A stretch of 64,000 nucleotides of DNA from positions 27,195 through 91,194 of the forward strand of contig JANBRJ010000069.1 of NCBI GenBank assembly GCA_027577595.1. The letters run 5' to 3'. The stretch is from Coemansia sp. RSA 487. Taxonomy: Eukaryota; Kickxellomycota; Kickxellomycetes; Kickxellales; Kickxellaceae. This document shows positions 25,835 through 59,906 of the stretch, one piece after another. The position numbers were made by a program, and so were the translations under genes. Within the stretch, counting starts at the first letter, position 1; each line of letters begins with the position of its first letter. The notes below the pieces were generated by a model that worked only from the letters and a program-made list of their open reading frames with translations, did no database searches and was not told where the DNA came from.

Positions 25835-27160
25835 ATGCATCAAATCAGCATGCTTTCGAGAAGTCAAAAGCAGACGGTGGCGCTGCAGAAATACTCGAGG
25901 CCCATGGTCTCTTGCCGCAGACCACTCTGCAACCACCACTCGTGCAACCCTTGCGCCGAACACAATCTTCCATCTTCTTCCTCACACCGTCGCTGCGCGT
26001 TTGAAAAGAAACCCACCACTTATGCTGGTGGTGAAGGCATCTCTGCAAAAGACGTTGCCTTACAGACTGAGTCTTGCATCCGCCGCGACTTTGGATACCC
26101 TGTAAAGTACCACGTAGGCTCATTCCCCTGGCTCCTGAGCGCAGAGCGCCAACGCACGCCAATGGATGACCTCGACGGGACCACCGACACCGGCACAAAC
26201 GCATCGTGCCTTGCGTCGGCTGCCATGCGTTGTCTGCCGCTGTCGACGCGGCATGGCCTGGCACAAACACTCAACCTCCACATAGCCCGTTCCGCGCTTG
26301 GCCAGCGTGCGCTCGACGACCTGTGTGCAGGCGCTACTGCTGCACTGCCGGAGATTGCTCGCCTGCTGACTGCTGCGTCTGCCGGCGACGCTGAGGCGTC
26401 CAGCGGCCTGGAGCACATATTCACAGCGCCGCTCCTTGCGCGCTACCAGAACGACCTGGGTCGCCTGCGCGAGGATAATGTGCACCTGAATCTGCAGGTG
26501 CGCCGCATCAACAGCGCGCAGATCCACCAGCTGCGCACAGAGACTGGGCCGGCCGAGGCATATGCAGCGGCCGATGCCTGCAGATACCAGCAGCAGCAGC
26601 AGAACCAGCAGCAGCAGGAGGTGCTGGATGCTGGGATTGCTGTGTCGGCGCCCAAGCCAATGTCGGTCCTGCGTGCGGGGCTTGCGCGGCAAAAGTACCA
26701 GTACACAAACGTCTTTGGCGCTAGCTATGCTTCCACCGGAAACCACCACCAGCAGAACCAGCAGCAGCAGCCGTCGGACTCGTCGGCGTTGTCACAAGCG
26801 CGCAGCTGGGCCACAGGCATGTGGAACGTTGCAAGCGGCAAGGCGCCCGTACGTGTGCGTGTTGATGTCGAGCTCAATGCCGACATGAGATATCAGCTTA
26901 TCGGCAGACACAAGACGCCGACCGAGTATGACAGGCACAAGGACACAAGCAAGGTTATTGTCGATGACGATGCCACACGCAATCTGATGCTGACGCTTGA
27001 ATCCACAACCGCTACCACCACAGCAGCTAGCAGCAGCAATGGCGACGCAACACAACAGCCAGATTTCCAATGGCGTGTTGCCGATATCGACTATCTGTTG
27101 TCGAGTGAGCAGAGGATCTGGCAAGAGTTTAAAGAAGCAGCCGAATCTCTGGATGTCTAG
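25835..27160 (+). CDS. Unknown, probably mitochondrial protein; copy A of an inverted pair
   Basis: A 441-residue single-exon protein from ATG 25835; M6 is an alternative start. The N-terminus is basic, Ser/Arg-rich and lacks acidic residues, like a mitochondrial presequence. I do not recognise the family. The body contains an FPWLLSAERQR motif, a Thr-rich DGTTDTGTN segment, Ala/Leu-rich helices with coiled-coil character (LREDNVHLNLQVRR), Gln runs, and a VRVRVDVELNADMRYQLIG strand-like segment. Residues encoded by 26153-27114 are almost identical to copy B at 32276-33673 on the other strand, whereas the first 105 residues and the last 15 differ. It may be a mitochondrial inner-membrane or translation-associated protein, but that is only a guess. 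Confidence 0.65.
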   Translation: MHQISMLSRSQKQTVALQKYSRPMVSCRRPLCNHHSCNPCAEHNLPSSSSHRRCAFEKKPTTYAGGEGISAKDVALQTESCIRRDFGYPVKYHVGSFPWLLSAERQRTPMDDLDGTTDTGTNASCLASAAMRCLPLSTRHGLAQTLNLHIARSALGQRALDDLCAGATAALPEIARLLTAASAGDAEASSGLEHIFTAPLLARYQNDLGRLREDNVHLNLQVRRINSAQIHQLRTETGPAEAYAAADACRYQQQQQNQQQQEVLDAGIAVSAPKPMSVLRAGLARQKYQYTNVFGASYASTGNHHQQNQQQQPSDSSALSQARSWATGMWNVASGKAPVRVRVDVELNADMRYQLIGRHKTPTEYDRHKDTSKVIVDDDATRNLMLTLESTTATTTAASSSNGDATQQPDFQWRVADIDYLLSSEQRIWQEFKEAAESLDV

Positions 27161-27369
27161 TGCACTACTCTGTTTAGCACACCACAACAAAATTGTAGTT
27201 TTTTTTGTAGGTATTTATTTCTTCGTAATGTATAACATTTTCTATTATATTTGAAACTAGCTTGAACCATACACATTCAATATCAAAATGGCTTCAAAGA
27301 AGTGATGTTTTTTTGATGTTGATACAGAAAAGAAAGACCTAGATTATTAAAAAAACCAAGCAAACAGGC

Positions 27370-28881
27370 TTATGCCCAGTCAAGACTGCGCTTGACGGCC
27401 TTCTCCCATCCTTCAATCATCTCGGTGCGCTTCTCGCTGGTGATTCCCGACCAGAAGGCAGTGACGTTGGACTGGGCGACCTGGCGCAGCTCGCTCTCGT
27501 CCTTCCAGACACCAACGCCCAGGCCAGCAGCCAGAGCGGCACCAAGTGCGGTGGTCTCGCGCATCTCAGGGCGAACAACCTCGATACCCAGGATGTCGGC
27601 CTGGATCTGCATTGCCTGCTCAGAGTTGGTCATGCCACCGTCGACGCGGAGCCTGCGGAGCTCGTGGCCGCTGTCCTTGCGCATAGCGTCAAGGATGGCG
27701 TGCGACTGGTAGCAGACAGACTCCAGCGTTGCGCGCGCAATGTGGCCGCGCGTGGCGTACTGCGTCAGACCGACGATGCACCCGCGGGCGTCGTCGCGCC
27801 AGTACGGCGCAAACAACCCGGAGAAGGCAGTGACAAAGTACACACCGCCGTTGTCCTTGACAGTGTCGGCAAGGAAGCCGATCTCGGGGGCAGAGACAAT
27901 CAGCCCGACCTTGTCGCGCAGCCACTGGATGGCCGACCCAGCGACGGCAACAGAGCCCTCCAGCGCGTACTTGGGCGTGGCGTTGGCGCCAAGCTTGTAT
28001 CCGACGGTCGTCAGAAGCCCGTTCTTGGAGAAGATCGGCGTCTCGCCGGTGTTAAACAGCATGAAGCAGCCAGTGCCGTAGGTGTTCTTGGCCTCGCCGG
28101 TCTCGAAGCACGACTGGCCGACCATAGCGGCCTGCTGGTCGCCGAGGCAGCCGGCGATGGGCAGACCCTCGAGGCGCCCTGTGTTGATGGTTCCGTAGAT
28201 CTCAGACGACGAGCGGATCTCGGGGAGCTCGCTCTCTTGGACGCCAAAGAAATCCAGGCACTCCTTGCTCCACTTGAACGTCTTAATGTCCATGAGCATG
28301 GTGCGGCTGGCGTTGGTGACATCCGTGACGAAGCTTCCTGTCATCTTGTAGATCAGCCATGCGTCGACGGTACCGAAGCGCAGGGTGCCCTTCTCGCGCG
28401 CCGCCTGGACGGCGGGGATGTTCTCTAGCATCCAGCGCATCTTGACAGCGCTAAAGTACGTGGTAATTGGGAGTCCGCTAATGGTGGCGTAGCGGGTGGC
28501 AGACCCAGCTTCGGCGATCAGCTTGTGCACCAGCTCCTTTGTACGCACATCGTTCCAGATGATGGCGTTAGTCAGCGGCTCACCGGTCTCGATGTCGAAT
28601 GCAATCGTGGTCTCGCGCTGGTTGGTGATGCCGACACCCTTGATCTGCGACGTCTCGTAGCCCAGCGCATTGAAGCGGCGGCACGCGCCGACAATCACCG
28701 TCTCGACCGACTGGAGAATCTGGTTGGGATCCTTCTCGACCCACCCGGCCTTGGCGTAGTGGTTCTCGTATTCGGCCTGGTGGCTGGCAACGATCTGGCC
28801 CTTTACGTTGAAGATGAGGAAGCGGGACGAGGACGTGCCCTGGTCGATAGCACCGATGAAAACTTCGTCAGCCTTGGACAT
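27370..28881 (-). CDS. GUT1: Glycerol kinase
   Basis: A 503-residue single-exon FGGY-family carbohydrate kinase. The N-terminal phosphate-binding loop IGAIDQGTSSSRF, the GITNQRETT segment, the AIIWNDVRT substrate region, the GDQQAAMVGQ motif, NTYGTGCFML and the second FGGY signature (IARATLESVCYQ) are all intact, as is the C-terminal RVDGGMTNS. It transfers phosphate from ATP to glycerol, giving glycerol-3-phosphate for lipid synthesis or glycolysis, probably in the cytosol. Length equals bacterial and animal enzymes and lacks the insertions of Saccharomyces Gut1 (709 aa). It lies convergent with copy A of the mitochondrial-type gene (209 bp between stops). Confidence 0.96.
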   Translation of the reverse strand: MSKADEVFIGAIDQGTSSSRFLIFNVKGQIVASHQAEYENHYAKAGWVEKDPNQILQSVETVIVGACRRFNALGYETSQIKGVGITNQRETTIAFDIETGEPLTNAIIWNDVRTKELVHKLIAEAGSATRYATISGLPITTYFSAVKMRWMLENIPAVQAAREKGTLRFGTVDAWLIYKMTGSFVTDVTNASRTMLMDIKTFKWSKECLDFFGVQESELPEIRSSSEIYGTINTGRLEGLPIAGCLGDQQAAMVGQSCFETGEAKNTYGTGCFMLFNTGETPIFSKNGLLTTVGYKLGANATPKYALEGSVAVAGSAIQWLRDKVGLIVSAPEIGFLADTVKDNGGVYFVTAFSGLFAPYWRDDARGCIVGLTQYATRGHIARATLESVCYQSHAILDAMRKDSGHELRRLRVDGGMTNSEQAMQIQADILGIEVVRPEMRETTALGAALAAGLGVGVWKDESELRQVAQSNVTAFWSGITSEKRTEMIEGWEKAVKRSLDWA

Positions 28882-30710
28882 TGTCTTATCAAATAGTATC
28901 AGGTAAAGTGGTAGTGGTTAAGAAAGATAAAGCAAAGTATACTACGCTTACAAGGCTGGAGGTTTTGGAGATTAGGTGTGGGAAGGGGGGTAAAGAAAGG
29001 TGCTTTTGGTAGCAAGAACAGAATGGGTCTGGACAACAGGCAACAAAAATGAGTGTATGCGTGTGTTCGATTACTGAGAGATAAATATGGCAAGACGCTT
29101 TTTGCCTTGAAGGAAATACAGAGAAAATTGGCTATGGAGGAGGTATTATTGATCACAGGCAAAAGAAGGAACATTTGACGGGCCTCTTCCGCAAACTGTC
29201 TGTTTTATATCTGGCCTGGATGAGGATAATTCTTTCTCTATTATCTTTAGGCGGTGGCGGGTCACGCATGCCATGCACGATACCGCAAGAATATGGAAGA
29301 TGCACAACCCGCCATCCAATTCCTCGTCGTTTTGCTTTTCTCGCATTGGCCGTGTTACTCCCGACTGGTCGTTGCTGTGCAGATAAAAAAAAGTGGCCAC
29401 AGCTCCACTTCCCCTCTTTTCCACTTGCTCCGTGCGAGCAAATCGGTGTTGCGTGCCAATGAATAGAATGTCAGTCAGAGCGGAAGCATCGTTTGTCTTG
29501 GCTCCATGGCAGCCAGGCCAGCCAACCACCATCGATGCCTGGCCCAGTTTAGATTGCCTTGTGCACGCTACCTGCCTTTTCTGGCCACTCTAAACGCCGT
29601 CAATTGCACATCAATTGATGTCGCTCTTCTTTGCTTTCAATAATATACTGCCTTGAGCGCATGCAGCACAGCTACCTCTTCAATCGGTATTTGGACAATC
29701 TGAGGAAGAGCCAGCACTTTTTTCACACATCCAGCAAACAGGCACGAGACACCAAAATTTGGCACAGGGGTTTTGTTCTCAAAAAGAAATGCTGTCTGCG
29801 TTCCAAACATTCTCATGCATTTCTCACATGTCAGAATTTCCGCGCTTTTTACAAGAGATTGGCAACGGGTTGCCGAATGAGATATCTATTTTTAATGGAG
29901 ATAAAATGGTCTTTGCACAACACGCTCTGCTGCCGGCTGATTGCTGTTCTCACGAGACAAATCAGATGTAGATAAAACCTGAATTTGAACAACAAACCAA
30001 CCACACCTTCAATGAAATATAGAGATTGCGACGGACAGATGATTCCGCATCCATAACGAGGCGGCCCCGCTCTTTAAAACGTGAAGACGATTATGGATTG
30101 CTTGTCATTCATATTTTGCCAGCGTTGTACAAACAAGAGATTCACAAAAACGCGGATTTGATCCGTCTGCACATGCATATCGCACGATATTTCTACTGCG
30201 CAAATCTCCCAGCTCATATTGTAAATCGCATTGCACAAGATTGTAACTGCACGAGTCGTCTTCCACTTTTCCAACTTTAAAGATTCTCCACCGGCCCAAA
30301 TCCACCCAATGCAAGAACACCCTCCACCTCGCTCTTAATAAAAAGCCATGACATGTGTTTGGCTACAGCCACAACAACAACTGCAACAATACAGAGCAAA
30401 AGTTTGTGCCTGGTGTTGCCGGTTTAGCTTCAGTTTTGGAAGGTGCGGCAAATCAAACATTTCCCTCATTTGGAATGATTTGAGTAAGAGCATTGTTATC
30501 ACTAGCCAATGACAATATCGGCTCATGAGAAGCCTTTGGATCAGATGGTCCAAGAACGATCGAATGCTACGCAAAGCGGCACAGAAAAGCACCTGTTTGT
30601 TCTTCGGCCTTCGCACTCCCAGCACGATCAATTAATGCAATGATCCCATCAAATTAAAGCAAACCAATTGGTTTTGATACTGGGTGGTTGACAATGGAAA
30701 CATCCACACA
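28882..30710. other. Intergenic region upstream of glycerol kinase
   Basis: About 1.8 kb in which I see no supportable gene. Short frames on both strands (up to 128 codons) lack recognisable content. The first few hundred bases are likely the glycerol kinase promoter. Confidence 0.45.
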
Positions 30711-30830
30711 TACTGTGTTTTGCAAAACTAATTGCGCCAAATAAGAAGGGTGTATACGTGTCGAATGGCGAAAGGTTTGCAGTGGAAATAATGCATTTTG
30801 CGTTCCAAGAAAAAGTCGTTTGTGTCAGTT
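30711..30830 (+). repeat. Dispersed protein-like repeat, copy 1
   Basis: About 110-120 bp shared with 32003-32117 (opposite strand) and 63637-63740 (same strand), starting around TACTGTGTTTTGCAAAACTA. In this copy the frame is open (stop at 30967) and reads AKLIAPNK, then NGERFAVEIMHFAFQEKVV. Differences from copy 3 mostly keep the frame, so the repeat probably derives from a coding element. Confidence 0.7.
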
Positions 30831-31208
30831 GGCGTTATATTTATGCTTGGAAGCAAGAGGCGCAAACTGGGCTTTGCGGAGAAAACAGTTCGCTACACGC
30901 CTGTTATTTCATACTAAAATGGACTGGTTTCTCAGTTCCTGTCTGTGCTCTCGATGTGATTAGTTAATACTGATCCTAATAAAGCCTAACAATCTGAAGC
31001 AACACCACTTCACTACCTTGAACAAGAACAGCAATTAAGCCATACGCTCTTTGCCAGGCGTAGATATGTTGGAAGACTGTCACTCAAATAATGCGTCAGA
31101 GAACATGCTTGTGCGCATGCGTACGCTGATGGATGTTGGTCCACCAAAGGTGTTATATAAATACATTGTGACACCGATTAGGCAACCTAATTTGTGATCC
31201 AGAAATGT

Positions 31209-31270
31209 TGATATGTGAATACGACGGTTGTTATTCATGTATCATATTTACATATCATATTCACATATCA
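31209..31270. repeat. 13-bp perfect inverted repeat (hairpin)
   Basis: Arms 31209-31221 (TGATATGTGAATA) and 31258-31270 are exact reverse complements with a 36-nt AT-rich loop. It lies in the relic region and could be a chance AT-rich palindrome or a mobile-element end. Confidence 0.5.
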
Positions 31271-31420
31271 GGCTTTATATATCTATTTAATAGGCGTTTA
31301 CAGGTATAAATACTTTTGGTTCTACTAGCAATAAATGTGGAGGAACTGGGTTCCATTTTGAATTCACAAGTTCTAAGTATATGTCATTATATTTTTATAA
31401 CACCAGGTCTATCTTATTGA

Positions 31421-31803
31421 CGAATTCAGAAAATCAAAGACTTTCCCGAACTGCCTCACCGGCGCACTCTTGAGAAGTTCCTGAAAGTGCCCAACCCCCA
31501 CCCCTACCAACGAGAGATGATGAAAGAAGTGCTCTGCCACAGTCTCCTTGAGTGCACCAGCGGGCTATGTATGGGGCCGTGGAAGTGGATGGTGCTTTGA
31601 CTCCTCGTTCACACATGTACAACCAAGATCTCGCCGCCGTTCTCAACTTCAGGTGTATTTTCTATGGCCTTCGCGATAACGGCGAGACTCTAGAGCGCTT
31701 TTGTCGCAGTCAGCCTACAGCCATTGCCACCACCAATGAACAGTAGCCCAAGAAGAAAAGGAAGACGATAGCGGCAAAGAAGACGGCAAGGACGAACAAA
31801 TAA
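31421..31803 (+). pseudogene. Decayed fragment resembling the C-terminus of a TnpB/Fanzor-type nuclease
   Basis: Two overlapping frames give a broken protein. Frame 31421-31600 reads a VPNPHPYQRE segment, then a Cys-rich CHSLLEC-x4-C stretch like the zinc ribbon of TnpB/Fanzor proteins. Frame about 31552-31746 reads YNQDLAAVLNFRCIF, then a LRDNGETLERFCR segment, resembling the last RuvC motif (N-R-D plus an Ala/Leu/Asn helix) and C-terminal tail of fungal Fanzor proteins. After an in-frame TAG the same frame continues with PKKKRK and more Lys, like a nuclear-localisation tail, to 31801. The presumed Arg before the RuvC Asp is Gln here, and a frameshift and stop are present, so it is dead. Assignment is from memory of family patterns and is tentative. 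Confidence 0.4.
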
Positions 31804-32002
31804 CAACCACCACGAAACTCAGCCAAGGTTATAGCCGTGGCAAGTCCTAGTTCTAGGGTAGGGGTGCTGTCCCTTTTGCAAGGTGCTCGAATGAGAGCTG
31901 AAAAAGTAAACACCTGTGACTGCTTTTTGACAATGGTACTAATCATTTGTGTTTTCTCTTGTGTTTTCCTGTTTTGCACTGACGCATATGCCATGCCTGC
32001 GT

Positions 32003-32117
32003 AAACGACTTTTTCTTGGAGCACAAAATGCATCATTGCCACCACAAAAACCTTCCACCATTTTACGCATATACATCATTCTTATTCGGCGCAATTAGTT
32101 TTGCAAAACACAGCAAA
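32003..32117 (-). repeat. Dispersed protein-like repeat, copy 2 (inverted, decayed)
   Basis: Reverse complement matches copies 1 and 3 over about 110 bp. In the frame used by the other copies it has an in-frame TAA and loses register. With copy 1 it forms a long imperfect inverted pair flanking 30.8-32.0 kb, which contains the nuclease-like relic. Confidence 0.7.
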
Positions 32118-32275
32118 ATGAAACCCGTCTTCAATCTCCAGAAAAAATATATACATCTGCTGTCAAAAAAGATAACAAACAAGCCATTTAGCATATAGAT
32201 GCAATAGGGCAGTCATTGTGCTTCGGTGATAAATTCTAGTTGTAGATGGTAGAGAATATCAGTTAATTAGGTTTG

Positions 32276-33673
32276 TTAAATGTGCCGTGCCTCCTCCAAC
32301 TCATGCCGGATTCTCTGCTCACTCGACAGCAGATAGTCGATATCGGCAACACGCCATTGGAAATCTGGCTGTTGTGTTGCGTCGCCATTGCTGCTGCTAG
32401 CTGCTGTGGTGGCGGCGGTTGTGGATTCAAGCGTCAGCATCAGATTGCGTGTGGCATCGTCATCGACAATAACCTTGCTTGTGTCCTTGTGTCTGTCATA
32501 CTCGGTCGGCGTCTTGTGTCTGCCGATAAGCTGATATCTCATGTCGGCATTGAGCTCGACATCAACACGCACACGTACGGGCGCCTTGCCGCTTGCAACG
32601 TTCCACATGCCTGTGGCCCAGCTGCGCGCTTGTGACAACGCCGACGAGTCCGACGGCTGCTGCTGGTGGTTCTGCTGGTGGTGGTTTCCGGTGGAAGCAT
32701 AGCTAGCGCCAAAGACGTTTGTGTACTGGTACTTTTGCCGCGCAAGCCCCGCACGCAGGACCGACATTGGCTTGGGCGCCGACACAGCAATCCCAGCATC
32801 CAGCACCTCCTGCTGCTGCTGGTTCTGCTGCTGCTGCTGGTATCTGCAGGCATCGGCCGCTGCATATGCCTCGGCCGGCCCAGTCTCTGTGCGCAGCTGG
32901 TGGATCTGCGCGCTGTTGATGCGGCGCACCTGCAGATTCAGGTGCACATTATCCTCGCGCAGGCGACCCAGGTCGTTCTGGTAGCGCGCAAGGAGCGGCG
33001 CTGTGAATATGTGCTCCAGGCCGCTGGACGCCTCAGCGTCGCCGGCAGACGCAGCAGTCAGCAGGCGAGCAATCTCCGGCAGTGCAGCAGTAGCGCCTGC
33101 ACACAGGTCGTCGAGCGCACGCTGGCCAAGCGCGGAACGGGCTATGTGGAGGTTGAGTGTTTGTGCCAGGCCATGCCGCGTCGACAGCGGCAGACAACGC
33201 ATGGCAGCCGACGCAAGGCACGATGCGTTTGTGCCGGTGTCGGTGGTCCCGTCGAGGTCATCCATTGGCGTGCGCTGACGTTGGGCACTTAGCAGCCAAG
33301 GGAATACCTCCATATAGTATGTTGTAGGTGGGTACGACTCACAACGTGGGATTGGCGTGCCTTCATCATAAAGCGCAGGCCTGACAAAACCGTCAGGCAG
33401 TATGCGCGCCGACGTTACAAAGCGGCGCTTCTTGGTCGCACCTTTGGTGACAATAACAGGCGTGCCAGTGGACTTTACAGCGGGCGGCTGCTTCTTTTGA
33501 CGGGTGTCATCTCCGGCCACCTTTGACGTGTCCGTCTTTTCTGTACTCAAAGAACGAATAGCAGCCAATGTTGTTGCACTGTGCCAGCCTCCTTTTGGCC
33601 GTTGTAAAACGCCACTTGTGAGAGAGCAACCACCAAGGCCACTCCGGGCAACTCCTGCTACTTTACAGAGCAT
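32276..33673 (-). CDS. Unknown, probably mitochondrial protein; copy B of an inverted pair
   Basis: A 465-residue single-exon protein starting at ATG 33673. The first 45 residues are hydrophobic/basic and lack acidic residues, with a plausible presequence cleavage region near the RSLSTEK segment, so mitochondrial import is likely. Residues 55-90 are Lys/Thr-rich. The remainder parallels copy A: FPWLLSAQRQR, DGTTDTGTN, Ala/Leu helices, Gln runs and VRVRVDVELNADMRY. Nucleotides 32313-33274 match copy A (26153-27114) with five mismatches and no gaps. This N-terminus looks more like a complete organelle-targeted protein than copy A's, so B may be the ancestral copy. The family was not recognised. 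Confidence 0.7.
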   Translation of the reverse strand: MLCKVAGVARSGLGGCSLTSGVLQRPKGGWHSATTLAAIRSLSTEKTDTSKVAGDDTRQKKQPPAVKSTGTPVIVTKGATKKRRFVTSARILPDGFVRPALYDEGTPIPRCESYPPTTYYMEVFPWLLSAQRQRTPMDDLDGTTDTGTNASCLASAAMRCLPLSTRHGLAQTLNLHIARSALGQRALDDLCAGATAALPEIARLLTAASAGDAEASSGLEHIFTAPLLARYQNDLGRLREDNVHLNLQVRRINSAQIHQLRTETGPAEAYAAADACRYQQQQQNQQQQEVLDAGIAVSAPKPMSVLRAGLARQKYQYTNVFGASYASTGNHHQQNHQQQPSDSSALSQARSWATGMWNVASGKAPVRVRVDVELNADMRYQLIGRHKTPTEYDRHKDTSKVIVDDDATRNLMLTLESTTAATTAASSSNGDATQQPDFQWRVADIDYLLSSEQRIRHELEEARHI

Positions 33674-53252: not shown

Positions 53253-54119
53253 TTACTTTTTCTTTTTGGATGAAGAACTTTTGCTGTAAGCGGTCTTGAA
53301 AAATTGTAAGAAAAGGTACACCAGAGGAAGAAGGTACGCTGTTAGGATCCACTGACCCTTATTTTGGTTCTGCGTCTGGCAGCCTGGAATAACAAAATAA
53401 ACGACGATAACTGTTAGCCCGAACAAGAACTGGAAAATCTGAAGCGACGTCAAATACCGTTTTCCAGGTGGGTTGAATCCAAGTGCCGTGAGTGCGTAGT
53501 ACGAATACATTATCGTGTGCACTCCTGTATTTTCCCAAACAAGAAACAGACCCGAGCCAGAAGAGTAGTAGTTTGTGATATATGTGACAAGAATAACACC
53601 CGCATGATGGTATATCTGCAAAATTGAGGCTTTGCGTCCCTTCAGAATTATGATGACTGTATCAAGAAGTTCGTAGTACTTGGACAAGTAGAACAGATAC
53701 AGGTGAACAAAAAGCGCAGAATTCCATACAGTACCGTCAGTGTCACACATACCCTCAGAGAAGCCCTTCTTTATCATGTTGTTCACAAACAGCGGAAACA
53801 CGCCGCGGAACGCCCAGGCAGAGTATATAGCCAGAACAGTGTTGTGGACGACGACAAGCATGGTCATCGGCGTCAGGACTTTTTTCTTTGTTATTGAGCC
53901 ATCACTAGAGGCATTTTGGCGCTTGGCTTCAACACGCGACAGCTTGCTTGACTCTGGGCTGAAATAGAACGAGAGAACGGTGTAAACAGCAGAGACAAAA
54001 ACTGGCACCTGCCATTGCATGAAGAATGGATACCAGTCGCCTAAAGGCACATCACTAAGCTGGACATGTGTTCCAGCTGGTGGCTCTATGTGGTAAGCAC
54101 TTGGTGTAGAGGCTGACAT
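53253..54119 (-). CDS. ELO-family fatty acid elongase, copy 1
   Basis: A 288-residue single-exon ER membrane condensing enzyme. Family marks are LYLFYLSKYYELLDTVIIILKGR, the histidine box Q168-I-Y-H171-H172 (QxxHH variant of HxxHH), the MYSYYALTALG segment, and several hydrophobic helices (about 37-55, 85-105, 137-157, 175-190, 205-260). The C-terminus ends in SSSSKKKK, a likely di-lysine ER retrieval signal. It condenses malonyl-CoA with acyl-CoA in very-long-chain or polyunsaturated fatty acid synthesis; chain preference cannot be told. A tandem copy lies 376 bp upstream in the same orientation, near-identical over most of its length. Confidence 0.92.
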   Translation of the reverse strand: MSASTPSAYHIEPPAGTHVQLSDVPLGDWYPFFMQWQVPVFVSAVYTVLSFYFSPESSKLSRVEAKRQNASSDGSITKKKVLTPMTMLVVVHNTVLAIYSAWAFRGVFPLFVNNMIKKGFSEGMCDTDGTVWNSALFVHLYLFYLSKYYELLDTVIIILKGRKASILQIYHHAGVILVTYITNYYSSGSGLFLVWENTGVHTIMYSYYALTALGFNPPGKRYLTSLQIFQFLFGLTVIVVYFVIPGCQTQNQNKGQWILTAYLLPLVYLFLQFFKTAYSKSSSSKKKK

Positions 54120-54495: not shown

Positions 54496-55347
54496 TCAGT
54501 CGCTCTTTTTCAGTTGCGTACCCTTTCCTGTGTATGTCTGTTTAAAGAATTGCGCAAATAAGTAAATAAGTGGTAGCAGGTACGCTGTCATAATAAGAGG
54601 CCAGGTACGCTGTGCTGGCTTTAAACAGCCAGGGATTAAAAAGTAAACAATAACAACTGCTTGCCCAAACAAGAACTGGAAAATCTGAAGCGACGTCAAA
54701 TACTGCTTTCCAGGTGGGTTGAATCCAAGTGCCGTGAGTGCGTAGTACGAATACATTATCGTGTGCACTCCCGCATTCTCCCAGACAACGAAGACGGAAC
54801 ATGGTGACGTGAAATAGTTGGAAGTGTACATTACAAGAATAACACCCGCATGATGGTATATCTGCAAAATTGAGGCTTTGCGTCCCTTCAGAATTATGAT
54901 GACTGTATCAAGAAGTTCGTAGTACTTGGACAAGTAGAACAGATACAGGTGAACAAAAAGCGCAGAATTCCATACAGTGCCGTCGGTGTCACACATACCC
55001 TCGAAGAAACCCTTCTTTATCATGTTGTTCACAAACAGCGGAAACACGCCGCGGAACGCCCAGGCAGAGTATATAGCCAGAACAGTGTTGTGGACGACGA
55101 CAAGCATGGTCATCGGCGTCAGGACTTTTTTCTTTGTTGTTGAGCCATCACTAGAGGCATTTTGGCGCTTGGCTTCAACACGCGACAGTTTGCTTGACTC
55201 TGGGCTGAAATAGAACGAGAGAACGGTGTAAACAGCAGAGACAAAAACTGGCACCTGCCATTGCATGAAGAATGGATACCAGTCGCCTAAAGGCACATCA
55301 CTGAGCTGGACATGCGTTCCAGCTGGCGGTTCCACGTGGTAGGACAT
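54496..55347 (-). CDS. ELO-family fatty acid elongase, copy 2
   Basis: A 283-residue single-exon paralogue of the adjacent elongase, starting at ATG 55347 (MSYHVEPPAG). The open frame extends about 48 codons upstream but without an ATG. From the N-terminus through the QxxHH box it is nearly identical to copy 1. It then has a short divergent island directly after the box (TSNYFTSPCSVFVVWENA versus TNYYSSGSGLFLVWENT), a second near-identical block (MYSYYALTALGFNPPGK to LFG), and a different C-terminus ending in LKKSD. Expected activity is the same condensation step in fatty acid elongation, perhaps with altered substrate length because the divergent parts lie in and after the post-His-box helices. 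Confidence 0.92.
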   Translation of the reverse strand: MSYHVEPPAGTHVQLSDVPLGDWYPFFMQWQVPVFVSAVYTVLSFYFSPESSKLSRVEAKRQNASSDGSTTKKKVLTPMTMLVVVHNTVLAIYSAWAFRGVFPLFVNNMIKKGFFEGMCDTDGTVWNSALFVHLYLFYLSKYYELLDTVIIILKGRKASILQIYHHAGVILVMYTSNYFTSPCSVFVVWENAGVHTIMYSYYALTALGFNPPGKQYLTSLQIFQFLFGQAVVIVYFLIPGCLKPAQRTWPLIMTAYLLPLIYLFAQFFKQTYTGKGTQLKKSD

Positions 55348-57192: not shown

Positions 57193-58263
57193 ATGGTTGA
57201 AGGCAAAATTAACGAGATTCACGGATGGGCCGCTATGAAGCCCGGGCTTACTGTCGAACCTTGATCCTACAAGCCCCGTCCGCTTGGCGAACACGACGTC
57301 GAGATCAAGATCGAGTACAGCGGCATCTGCGGCTCCGATCTGCACACGATCAAGGAGGAATGGAGCGGTACCTCCTATCCTGCAATCGTTGGGCACGAAA
57401 TTGTTGGAAAGATCATTACAAAGGGAGAGAAAGCGACGCACCTCGAGGAAGGCGATCTCGTTGGTGTCGGTGCTCAGGTTTACGGATGCCTCCAGAAAGA
57501 CTGCAATCCCTGCAGCCGCGATCTTGACCCACACTGTCCTAAGAGCGTTTTCACCTACAACACGAAGTATCCCGACGGCGAGCAAGCCCACGGCGGGTAC
57601 GCAGAGGCTGTCCGCGTCGATTCCAACTACGCAATCAAGATTCCTGCTGGCCTGGATCCTGTATATGCACCTCCTCTGATGTGCGCTGGCGCTACGGTGT
57701 TTGCACCGATGCTGCGCAAGGGCGTGAAGAAGGGTGACCGTGTTGGAGTCATTGGAATTGGTGGTCTTGGCCATCTTGCTGTCCAGTATGCCAGTGCGCT
57801 TGGCGCCGAAGTCGTTGCATTTTCGCATTCTCCAAACAAGCGCGAACAATGTCTAAAGCTTGGAGCCTCCAAATTTGTGGATACTTCAAACAAGGAAGAA
57901 GTTGATGCAGTGCGTCGCTCCCTGAACTACTTGTTTGTTGCTTCAAACTCAACGTCTAACCAGTACAATGAGTTTATTTCGTGGATGGACTTTGAGGGGC
58001 AGATTGTCCTGCTTGCGCTTCCAAAGGGCAACATGTCCTTCTCTCCCGGAGAGTTTATCCGGACCGAGGTTGCTATCACCGGTTCTTTGATTGGCGGCGT
58101 CAATGTGCTTAAGAAGACCCTCGAGTTCTCTGCAAAGCACAAGATTCTACCGATTATCGAGCGCTACCCTATGGAAAAGGTGAATGATGCTATTGTCCAG
58201 GTCGACAGCGGCAAGGCTCGTTATCGCGTTGTGCTTGAAAACCCCAAGGATAGCAACCTTTAA
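57193..58263 (+). pseudogene. Zinc alcohol dehydrogenase copy 1 with premature TGA
   Basis: Aligns end to end with the intact gene at 58851-59906. After ATG 57193 the frame reads 23 codons, then TGA (57262-57264) exactly where the intact paralogue has Trp24 (TGG). From 57265 the frame is open to 58263 (332 codons) with every functional residue kept: catalytic-zinc Cys in GICGSD, GHE, the four-Cys structural zinc lobe, and the GIGGLGH Rossmann loop. A single G-to-A change is therefore enough to explain the break, which suggests very recent loss, a sequencing error or readthrough. Re-initiation at a downstream Met would remove the N-terminal catalytic lobe. Confidence 0.8.
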
Positions 58264-58850
58264 ATCTAGTTTTTATCTTGATTGTTGTGCTGACAGTTGC
58301 GAATAAATACGCGTAATTTTGATCAATTGTGTCTAAAGCAGATCAGATCATCATACAGCATGGTCGGAATTAGTTCGGCAAAGTGTCTTCGAAAAGATGT
58401 ATCCTTGAAACACGATTTTGGAAAACTTGTGTCATACCAAAGGATCGGCAAATATTGCAAGGGAAAGCGTTGAAACGCATATATTTTTAAAGTGTAGAAA
58501 CACTATCGGGAAAATGTCGGGACTTTATTTTTCTACTAGTTTAATGAAATAAACATGTCAGCTCTGTTATAGTATTATTCAGCAGTCTTTCCGCTTACGT
58601 GTGTTTTCCATATGTTGCACACACGATGGAATATTTCCCCGCCCAAGTGAAATCCCACCGAGTTCTGTATGCAGAGGCTCCTGTTTCACCACAAGTAGAT
58701 GCCAAAGTGTAAAGTAAAAAGCCCACGCGTATGTGAAACAGGTATAAAAGATGCATTTCTGGCTCGTTTCAGTTGTCGCCATTGCTTCTGATCTTAGCTT
58801 CAGTTTTCAAAGAAATAGCATCATCAACGACATTCTACTATATCTAAGCA
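58264..58850. promoter_or_regulatory. Spacer and promoter between ADH copies
   Basis: 587 bp carrying the 3' flank of copy 1 and the promoter of copy 2, including its TATA box. No coding sequence. Confidence 0.5.
58743..58750 (+). promoter_or_regulatory. TATA box upstream of ADH copy 2
   Basis: TATAAAAG, ending 100 bp before the ATG at 58851. Confidence 0.55.
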
Positions 58851-59906
58851 ATGGTTGAAGGCAAGATCAATGAAATTCACGCTTGGGCTGGCAAGACGCC
58901 AGGGCTTGCGGTCGAGTCCTGGACGTACAAACCTCGTCCACTTGGAGAACATGACGTCGAAATCAAGATCAACTACAACGGTATCTGTGGATCGGACATC
59001 CATACTCTCAAGAATGATTGGGGAAACACCAACTACCCAATTGTTGTCGGCCATGAGATTGTTGGCAAGGTCATCACTGTTGGCGATAAAGTGACTGCCT
59101 TCAAGGAGGGCGACATTGTTGGTGTTGGTGGTCAGATCCATGCGTGCCTCAAGAGCGACTGCAAAGCGTGCAGCCGCGAACTCGATCCCCATTGTCCTGA
59201 AAACATGTTTGTGTTCAACGCAACATACCCCGACGGAACGCCTACACAGGGCGGCTTTGCAGAGGCCGTTCGCGTTGAGGACAACTACGTTCACAAGATT
59301 CCTGCAAGCATCGACCCCGTCTACGCACCTCCTCTTATGTGCGCCGGTCTTACTGTGTATACGCCAATGGTACGCAAGGGTGTAAAGAAAGGCGATCGTG
59401 TTGGCATTGTTGGTATCGGTGGGCTTGGACACTTAGCGATCCAGTTTGCAAAGGCACTTGGTGCTGAAGTAATTGCCCTTTCGCATTCCTCGAATAAGCG
59501 CGAGCAAAGCCTTGCACTTGGCGCTTCAAAATTCGTGGATATCTCAAACAAGGAAGAGGTCGATTCTGTGCGCCACTCGCTAAACCATTTGTTTGTCACT
59601 TCTAGCGCAGAGTCAAACCAGTATAATGAGTTTATTTCGTGGATGGACTTTGAGGGGCAGATTGTCCTGCTTGCGCTTCCGAAAGGAACGATGTCCTTCC
59701 ATCCTGGAGAGTTCATCCAGACCGAGGTCTCCATCACCGGTTCCCTGATCGGTGGAAGAAAGGCCATGAGTGAAATGCTTGAATTTGCAGCCAAGCACAA
59801 CATCCGCCCAATGATCGAACGTTTCCCACTGTCCAAGGTCAACGAGGCTCTTGAATATGTTGACAGCGGCAAGCCCCGCTACCGAGTTGTGCTCGAGTCC
59901 GATTAA
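58851..59906 (+). CDS. Zinc-dependent alcohol dehydrogenase, cinnamyl/ADH6-like (NADP(H) likely)
   Basis: A 351-residue single-exon medium-chain dehydrogenase. Catalytic zinc ligands: C46 (GICGSDIH), H68-E69 (GHE) and C164. Structural zinc lobe: C99, C104, C107 and C115. The dinucleotide loop G188-I-G-G-L-G193 is followed by a Ser-rich SHSSNKREQ segment after the second strand, where an acidic residue would favour NAD; its absence fits NADP(H). It resembles yeast Adh6/Adh7 and plant cinnamyl alcohol dehydrogenases, which reduce a wide range of aldehydes in the cytosol. A same-strand paralogue 587 bp upstream has a nonsense codon. The TATA-to-ATG distance is alike in both. Confidence 0.93.
   Translation: MVEGKINEIHAWAGKTPGLAVESWTYKPRPLGEHDVEIKINYNGICGSDIHTLKNDWGNTNYPIVVGHEIVGKVITVGDKVTAFKEGDIVGVGGQIHACLKSDCKACSRELDPHCPENMFVFNATYPDGTPTQGGFAEAVRVEDNYVHKIPASIDPVYAPPLMCAGLTVYTPMVRKGVKKGDRVGIVGIGGLGHLAIQFAKALGAEVIALSHSSNKREQSLALGASKFVDISNKEEVDSVRHSLNHLFVTSSAESNQYNEFISWMDFEGQIVLLALPKGTMSFHPGEFIQTEVSITGSLIGGRKAMSEMLEFAAKHNIRPMIERFPLSKVNEALEYVDSGKPRYRVVLESD

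Follow-up and report, generated by a model that had tools for sequence, protein, structure and literature searches.

The closest described systems come from yeast and from a copepod. In interlocus (ectopic) gene conversion of duplicated genes, a segment is copied and pasted between paralogues, which can leave a near-identical tract in diverged surroundings; the mean lengths estimated for ectopic tracts in yeast run from ~50 to several hundred bp (PMC3924818). The low synonymous divergence of yeast duplicates is commonly put down to conversion (PMC2728529). In the copepod Tigriopus californicus, two paralogues, GOT1p1 and GOT1p2, form a mosaic of low and high divergence that has been ascribed to gene conversion (PMC3728101). 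Finally, inverted repeats in budding yeast recombine to yield either gene conversion, in which the spacer is kept, or inversion of the spacer (PMC8748988).

The locus that we analyzed in Coemansia sp. RSA 487 resembles the first of these systems in having a near-identical tract within diverged paralogues, and it resembles the GOT1 pair in its mosaic of low and high divergence. There are also differences. At 962 nt, the tract is longer than the mean ectopic tracts estimated in yeast (PMC3924818). The GOT1 mosaic is backed by several populations (PMC3728101), whereas the present pair is backed by one assembly. The inverted repeats studied in budding yeast are engineered heteroalleles (PMC8748988), whereas the present pair consists of natural, old paralogues. 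Among the papers listed by our literature searches, none has a title or abstract opening that names this locus or gene pair, and a search on gene conversion in Kickxellomycotina listed no paper.

The tract and the two genes that carry it

The following features make up the two genes. Coordinates refer to the window, i.e., the whole stretch of 64,000 nucleotides that was analyzed, and the start codon of each open reading frame is inferred.

25835..27160, + strand: paralogue 1, open reading frame of 441 aa
26099..26152, + strand: diverged homologous upstream flank of paralogue 1; contains FPWLLSAERQ and saturated silent sites; partner 33275-33328 (-)
26153..27114, + strand: near-identical tract, copy of paralogue 1; no difference in the first 608 nt
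27115..27141, + strand: diverged homologous downstream flank of paralogue 1; partner 32286-32312 (-)
32276..33673, - strand: paralogue 2, open reading frame of 465 aa
32286..32312, - strand: diverged homologous downstream flank of paralogue 2; partner of 27115..27141 (+)
32313..33274, - strand: near-identical tract, copy of paralogue 2; partner of 26153..27114 (+)
33275..33328, - strand: diverged homologous upstream flank of paralogue 2; holds FPWLLSAQRQ

The genes lie on opposite strands, tail to tail, and ~5.2 kb apart. When aligned, the two tract copies are each 962 nt long and differ by 5 mismatches and 0 gaps. The mismatches, at positions 26761, 26935, 27013, 27014 and 27098, comprise two amino-acid changes (Q/H and T/A) and three silent changes. 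All five fall within the last 354 nt of the tract, so that the first 608 nt are free of any difference; the chance of such a mismatch-free stretch at the start of the tract is 0.007, and that of a gap of this length anywhere is 0.04.

The tract has 320 codons, among which 306 are identical, 3 differ silently and 2 differ in the amino acid, with 9 Met or Trp codons set aside. Where the amino acid is the same, the same codon is used at 306/309 positions, repeated Gln codons included, and the tract's dS is 0.013 (NG86). The longest run of same-amino-acid codons lacking a silent difference covers 252 of 323 such codons, a length matched by 0 of 20,000 shuffles. The initial annotation had called for a sliding comparison of identity; in 50-nt bins, there are 48 to 50 matches inside the tract, 30 in the bin directly upstream and 32 in the one that straddles the downstream end, with 8 to 23 in bins farther away.

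Searches of the organism's own genome (17,787,467 bases in 184 contigs) found the tract DNA at these two places only. A protein search of the same genome at E-values up to 1 likewise returned only paralogues 1 and 2 among the 4 candidates scored, and no third paralogue. The protein matches no family in Pfam or NCBIfam; against PDB sequences, it gave one match at E 0.42, and a second search gave none up to E 10. A pattern search of viral contigs matched 19 stretches, none of which encodes a relative. A structure predicted from the two-row alignment has a mean pLDDT of 34.5, which is too poor for use. The first acidic residue is number 42 of paralogue 1 and number 45 of paralogue 2. Such a late occurrence would fit mitochondrial presequences.

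Edges of the tract

In the 12 codons directly upstream of the tract (26117-26152), 1 is identical, 7 differ silently and 3 differ in the amino acid, with one Trp set aside. Thus, 7 of the 8 codons for the same amino acid carry a silent difference here, as against 3/309 in the tract (Fisher p=1.6e-11). By NG86 counting, the upstream pS is 0.89 over 18 codons and 1.0 over 12. In fixed register, 33/54 nt match across the upstream flank (26099-26152; p=2e-8 against 25%) and 18/27 nt across the downstream flank (27115-27141; p=6e-6), where the bounds of both flanks were picked after the alignment had been seen. Past both homologous flanks, the fixed-register match is at background, with 10/39, 11/29 and 28/90 nt.

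The upstream homologous edge is short, at ~18 codons. N-termini that include FPWLLSA outscore 2000 of 2000 shuffles, while those without it have no detectable similarity, as 553 of 2000 shuffles score equally well. Both descriptions in the initial annotation, of a sharp drop in nucleotide match within homologous coding flanks and of N-termini that are nearly unrelated, agree with these results, as does its count of five mismatches and no gap over 962 nt, Gln codons included.

The downstream edge spans 9 codons, and 4 of these encode the same amino acid in both genes, which is too few for a silent contrast. When codon differences of any kind are counted, the downstream side does differ from the tract (p=1.4e-9), and the downstream dS is ~1.0 on 12 codons. 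The C-terminal residues past the tract, taken alone, are aligned as well by 135 of 2000 shuffles; given this weak protein alignment, homology on this side rests on the nucleotide match in register. No significant match was found between the 400-nt 3' flanks, as 85 of 300 shuffles were as good. Of the two edges, the downstream one is the weaker.

Possible origins of the tract

The saturation of silent sites at the upstream edge, next to a tract with a dS of 0.013, points to paralogues that are old and contain one young stretch. Because the fixed-register homology extends to both edges, the breakpoints would lie inside this older homology. The reading frame, too, is preserved over both tract edges. 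In our judgment, partial ectopic gene conversion between the inverted paralogues is very probably the best explanation. The initial annotation had reached the same reading; it is supported here, and the saturated homologous codons next to the tract give it stronger ground than it originally had. Under this explanation, recombination repair between the inverted copies would have copied a stretch of ~1 kb from one gene into the other. This would have replaced, in frame, the larger part of the C-terminal coding region in the recipient. Copying would have stopped upstream near sequence that had already diverged, and downstream where the homology ends. We infer both that the copying proceeded by homologous recombination and that it was recent.

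One alternative is that a recent, partial inverted duplication joined a segment of ~1 kb from one gene to unrelated coding sequence on both sides, which would have created a new, chimeric gene. The failure of the 3' flanks and of the N-termini before FPWLLSA to align is what such an event would leave, and an earlier survey, presumably of Caenorhabditis elegans, is cited as having found newborn duplicates to be often adjacent, inverted and structurally heterogeneous (PMC2728529). However, at the 5' edge the codons are homologous in register and their silent sites are saturated, and the 3' edge retains its own nucleotide match. A fresh insertion beside unrelated sequence would not be expected to meet old homologues at both ends. 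Since old homology touches the tract, a fresh chimeric duplication, like a plain recent one, is disfavored, and we regard it as quite unlikely.

It is also important to consider the possibility that a repeat was collapsed or wrongly filled during assembly, giving the copies a false likeness. The identical first 608 nt do exceed a typical short read. Against this, the assembly contains two distinct tract copies with 5 differing sites and dissimilar outer flanks, and both frames are open. In addition, an assembler would not readily mix up paralogues whose silent sites are saturated: an assembly error might remove a few differences or swap flanks, and would hardly create the tract. Such an artefact therefore strikes us as scarcely probable.

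A recent duplication of the whole gene, in which the tract was under very strong constraint or the ends evolved fast, might account for ends that differ in amino acids as well, but it is contradicted by a silent contrast as sharp as the amino-acid contrast, which argues that protein constraint is not the cause, and we consider it extremely improbable.

Returning to gene conversion, the distribution of differences within the tract suggests one of two histories: a single event after which a few mutations arose, or an older event overlaid by a later, shorter one. Because the tract exceeds the yeast ectopic means and its mismatches are concentrated toward the 3' end, it is possible that more than one event gave rise to it. 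We looked for a sign of the donor in GC3, and found no such signal: the value is 0.69 in the tract, 0.59 and 0.47 in the N- and C-terminal flanks of gene 1, and 0.47 and 0.67 in those of gene 2.

The spacer and other local pairs

Two features were found in the spacer between the inverted copies.

27370..28881, - strand: FGGY-family carbohydrate kinase gene
30707..32116, no strand assigned: element with inverted ends of ~110 nt (30713-30821 and 32003-32113); no open reading frame of at least 150 aa; member of a dispersed repeat family

The initial annotation had proposed that the pair brackets glycerol kinase and the relic of a mobile element. The spacer indeed holds an FGGY-family kinase gene and a dispersed repeat element, and the name glycerol kinase is consistent with this family assignment. 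The element's family has at least 115 matching rows, itself included, among the 40 candidates scored of 198. In the copies on contigs C23, C40 and C103, the parts that match either side of ~31030-31445 adjoin each other, so that the copy in the window may carry an extra insert there.

We also surveyed 251,194 nt, i.e., all of contig C69 and positions 1-160000 of contig C1 (~1.4% of the genome), for local near-identical pairs, using megablast with 24-base words and a cut-off of at least 85% identity over at least 200 nt. Three pairs emerged. Besides the inverted tract pair, these are two tandem elongase genes in the window and two inverted kinase genes on C1. The latter two pairs are given here, together with a more diverged pair that is discussed below.

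53253-54119 and 54496-55347, both - strand: tandem fatty-acid-elongase (ELO family) paralogues; near-identical middle, saturated C-terminal silent sites
C1 5379-7535 (- strand) and C1 23357-25513 (+ strand): inverted 718-aa fungal-type kinase genes (Pkinase_fungal), ~16 kb apart; 96% identical DNA
57265-58260 and 58848-59903, both + strand: tandem alcohol-dehydrogenase-like paralogues; protein ~71% identical, diverged except for one 16-codon identical run

The elongase pair has 32 silent differences in 224 same-amino-acid codons, with 4 of these differences between codon offsets 10 and 165, a range chosen after looking at the data. Its longest silent-identical run is 54, and 57 of 20,000 shuffles have one as long; in codons 247-286, dS is saturated. 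This pair thus looks like a second, conversion-like mosaic in the window. The two kinase genes remain near-identical from end to end, except for islands in which amino-acid differences are frequent; 17 silent and 40 amino-acid differences were counted. A third copy, at 88%, lies on contig C32, and C1 and C14 carry weaker, partial relatives. A recent duplication of the whole gene, with diversifying selection on the copies, would be another way to read this pair. The fungal family of these kinases, together with the long frames in the standard code, makes a fungal genome likely.

For comparison, we drew five other local pairs from an all-against-all comparison of open reading frames with 27 rows, many of which show the same pairs in another frame. 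In the five pairs, the longest runs of identical codons are 2, 2, 4, 11 and 16; two of these pairs align over only ~60 codons and have little power. The alcohol-dehydrogenase-like paralogues have 112 silent differences in 227 codons, and their 16-codon run perhaps reflects a very short conversion. Within this small sample of the genome, then, conversion-like mosaics appear to occur more than once, and not in every pair.

A broader hypothesis would be that the cores of local paralogues are repeatedly homogenized by conversion, whereas their N-terminal or variable parts stay distinct, and that exchanges in the inverted pair also reverse the 5.2-kb spacer, carbohydrate kinase gene included, so that two orientations exist in the population. 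We consider this combination unlikely, and offer it as speculation.

The process of gene conversion is well known, and this locus is a clean new example of it. With saturated homologous codons lying directly beside a tract of such low dS, the locus would be a natural and sharply drawn record of exchange between neighboring genes in inverted orientation. How old two paralogues in this genome seem to be varies with the part of the gene that is compared, and trees of such genes should therefore be built by segment. From the inverted layout, one would also predict that strains may differ in the orientation of the spacer.
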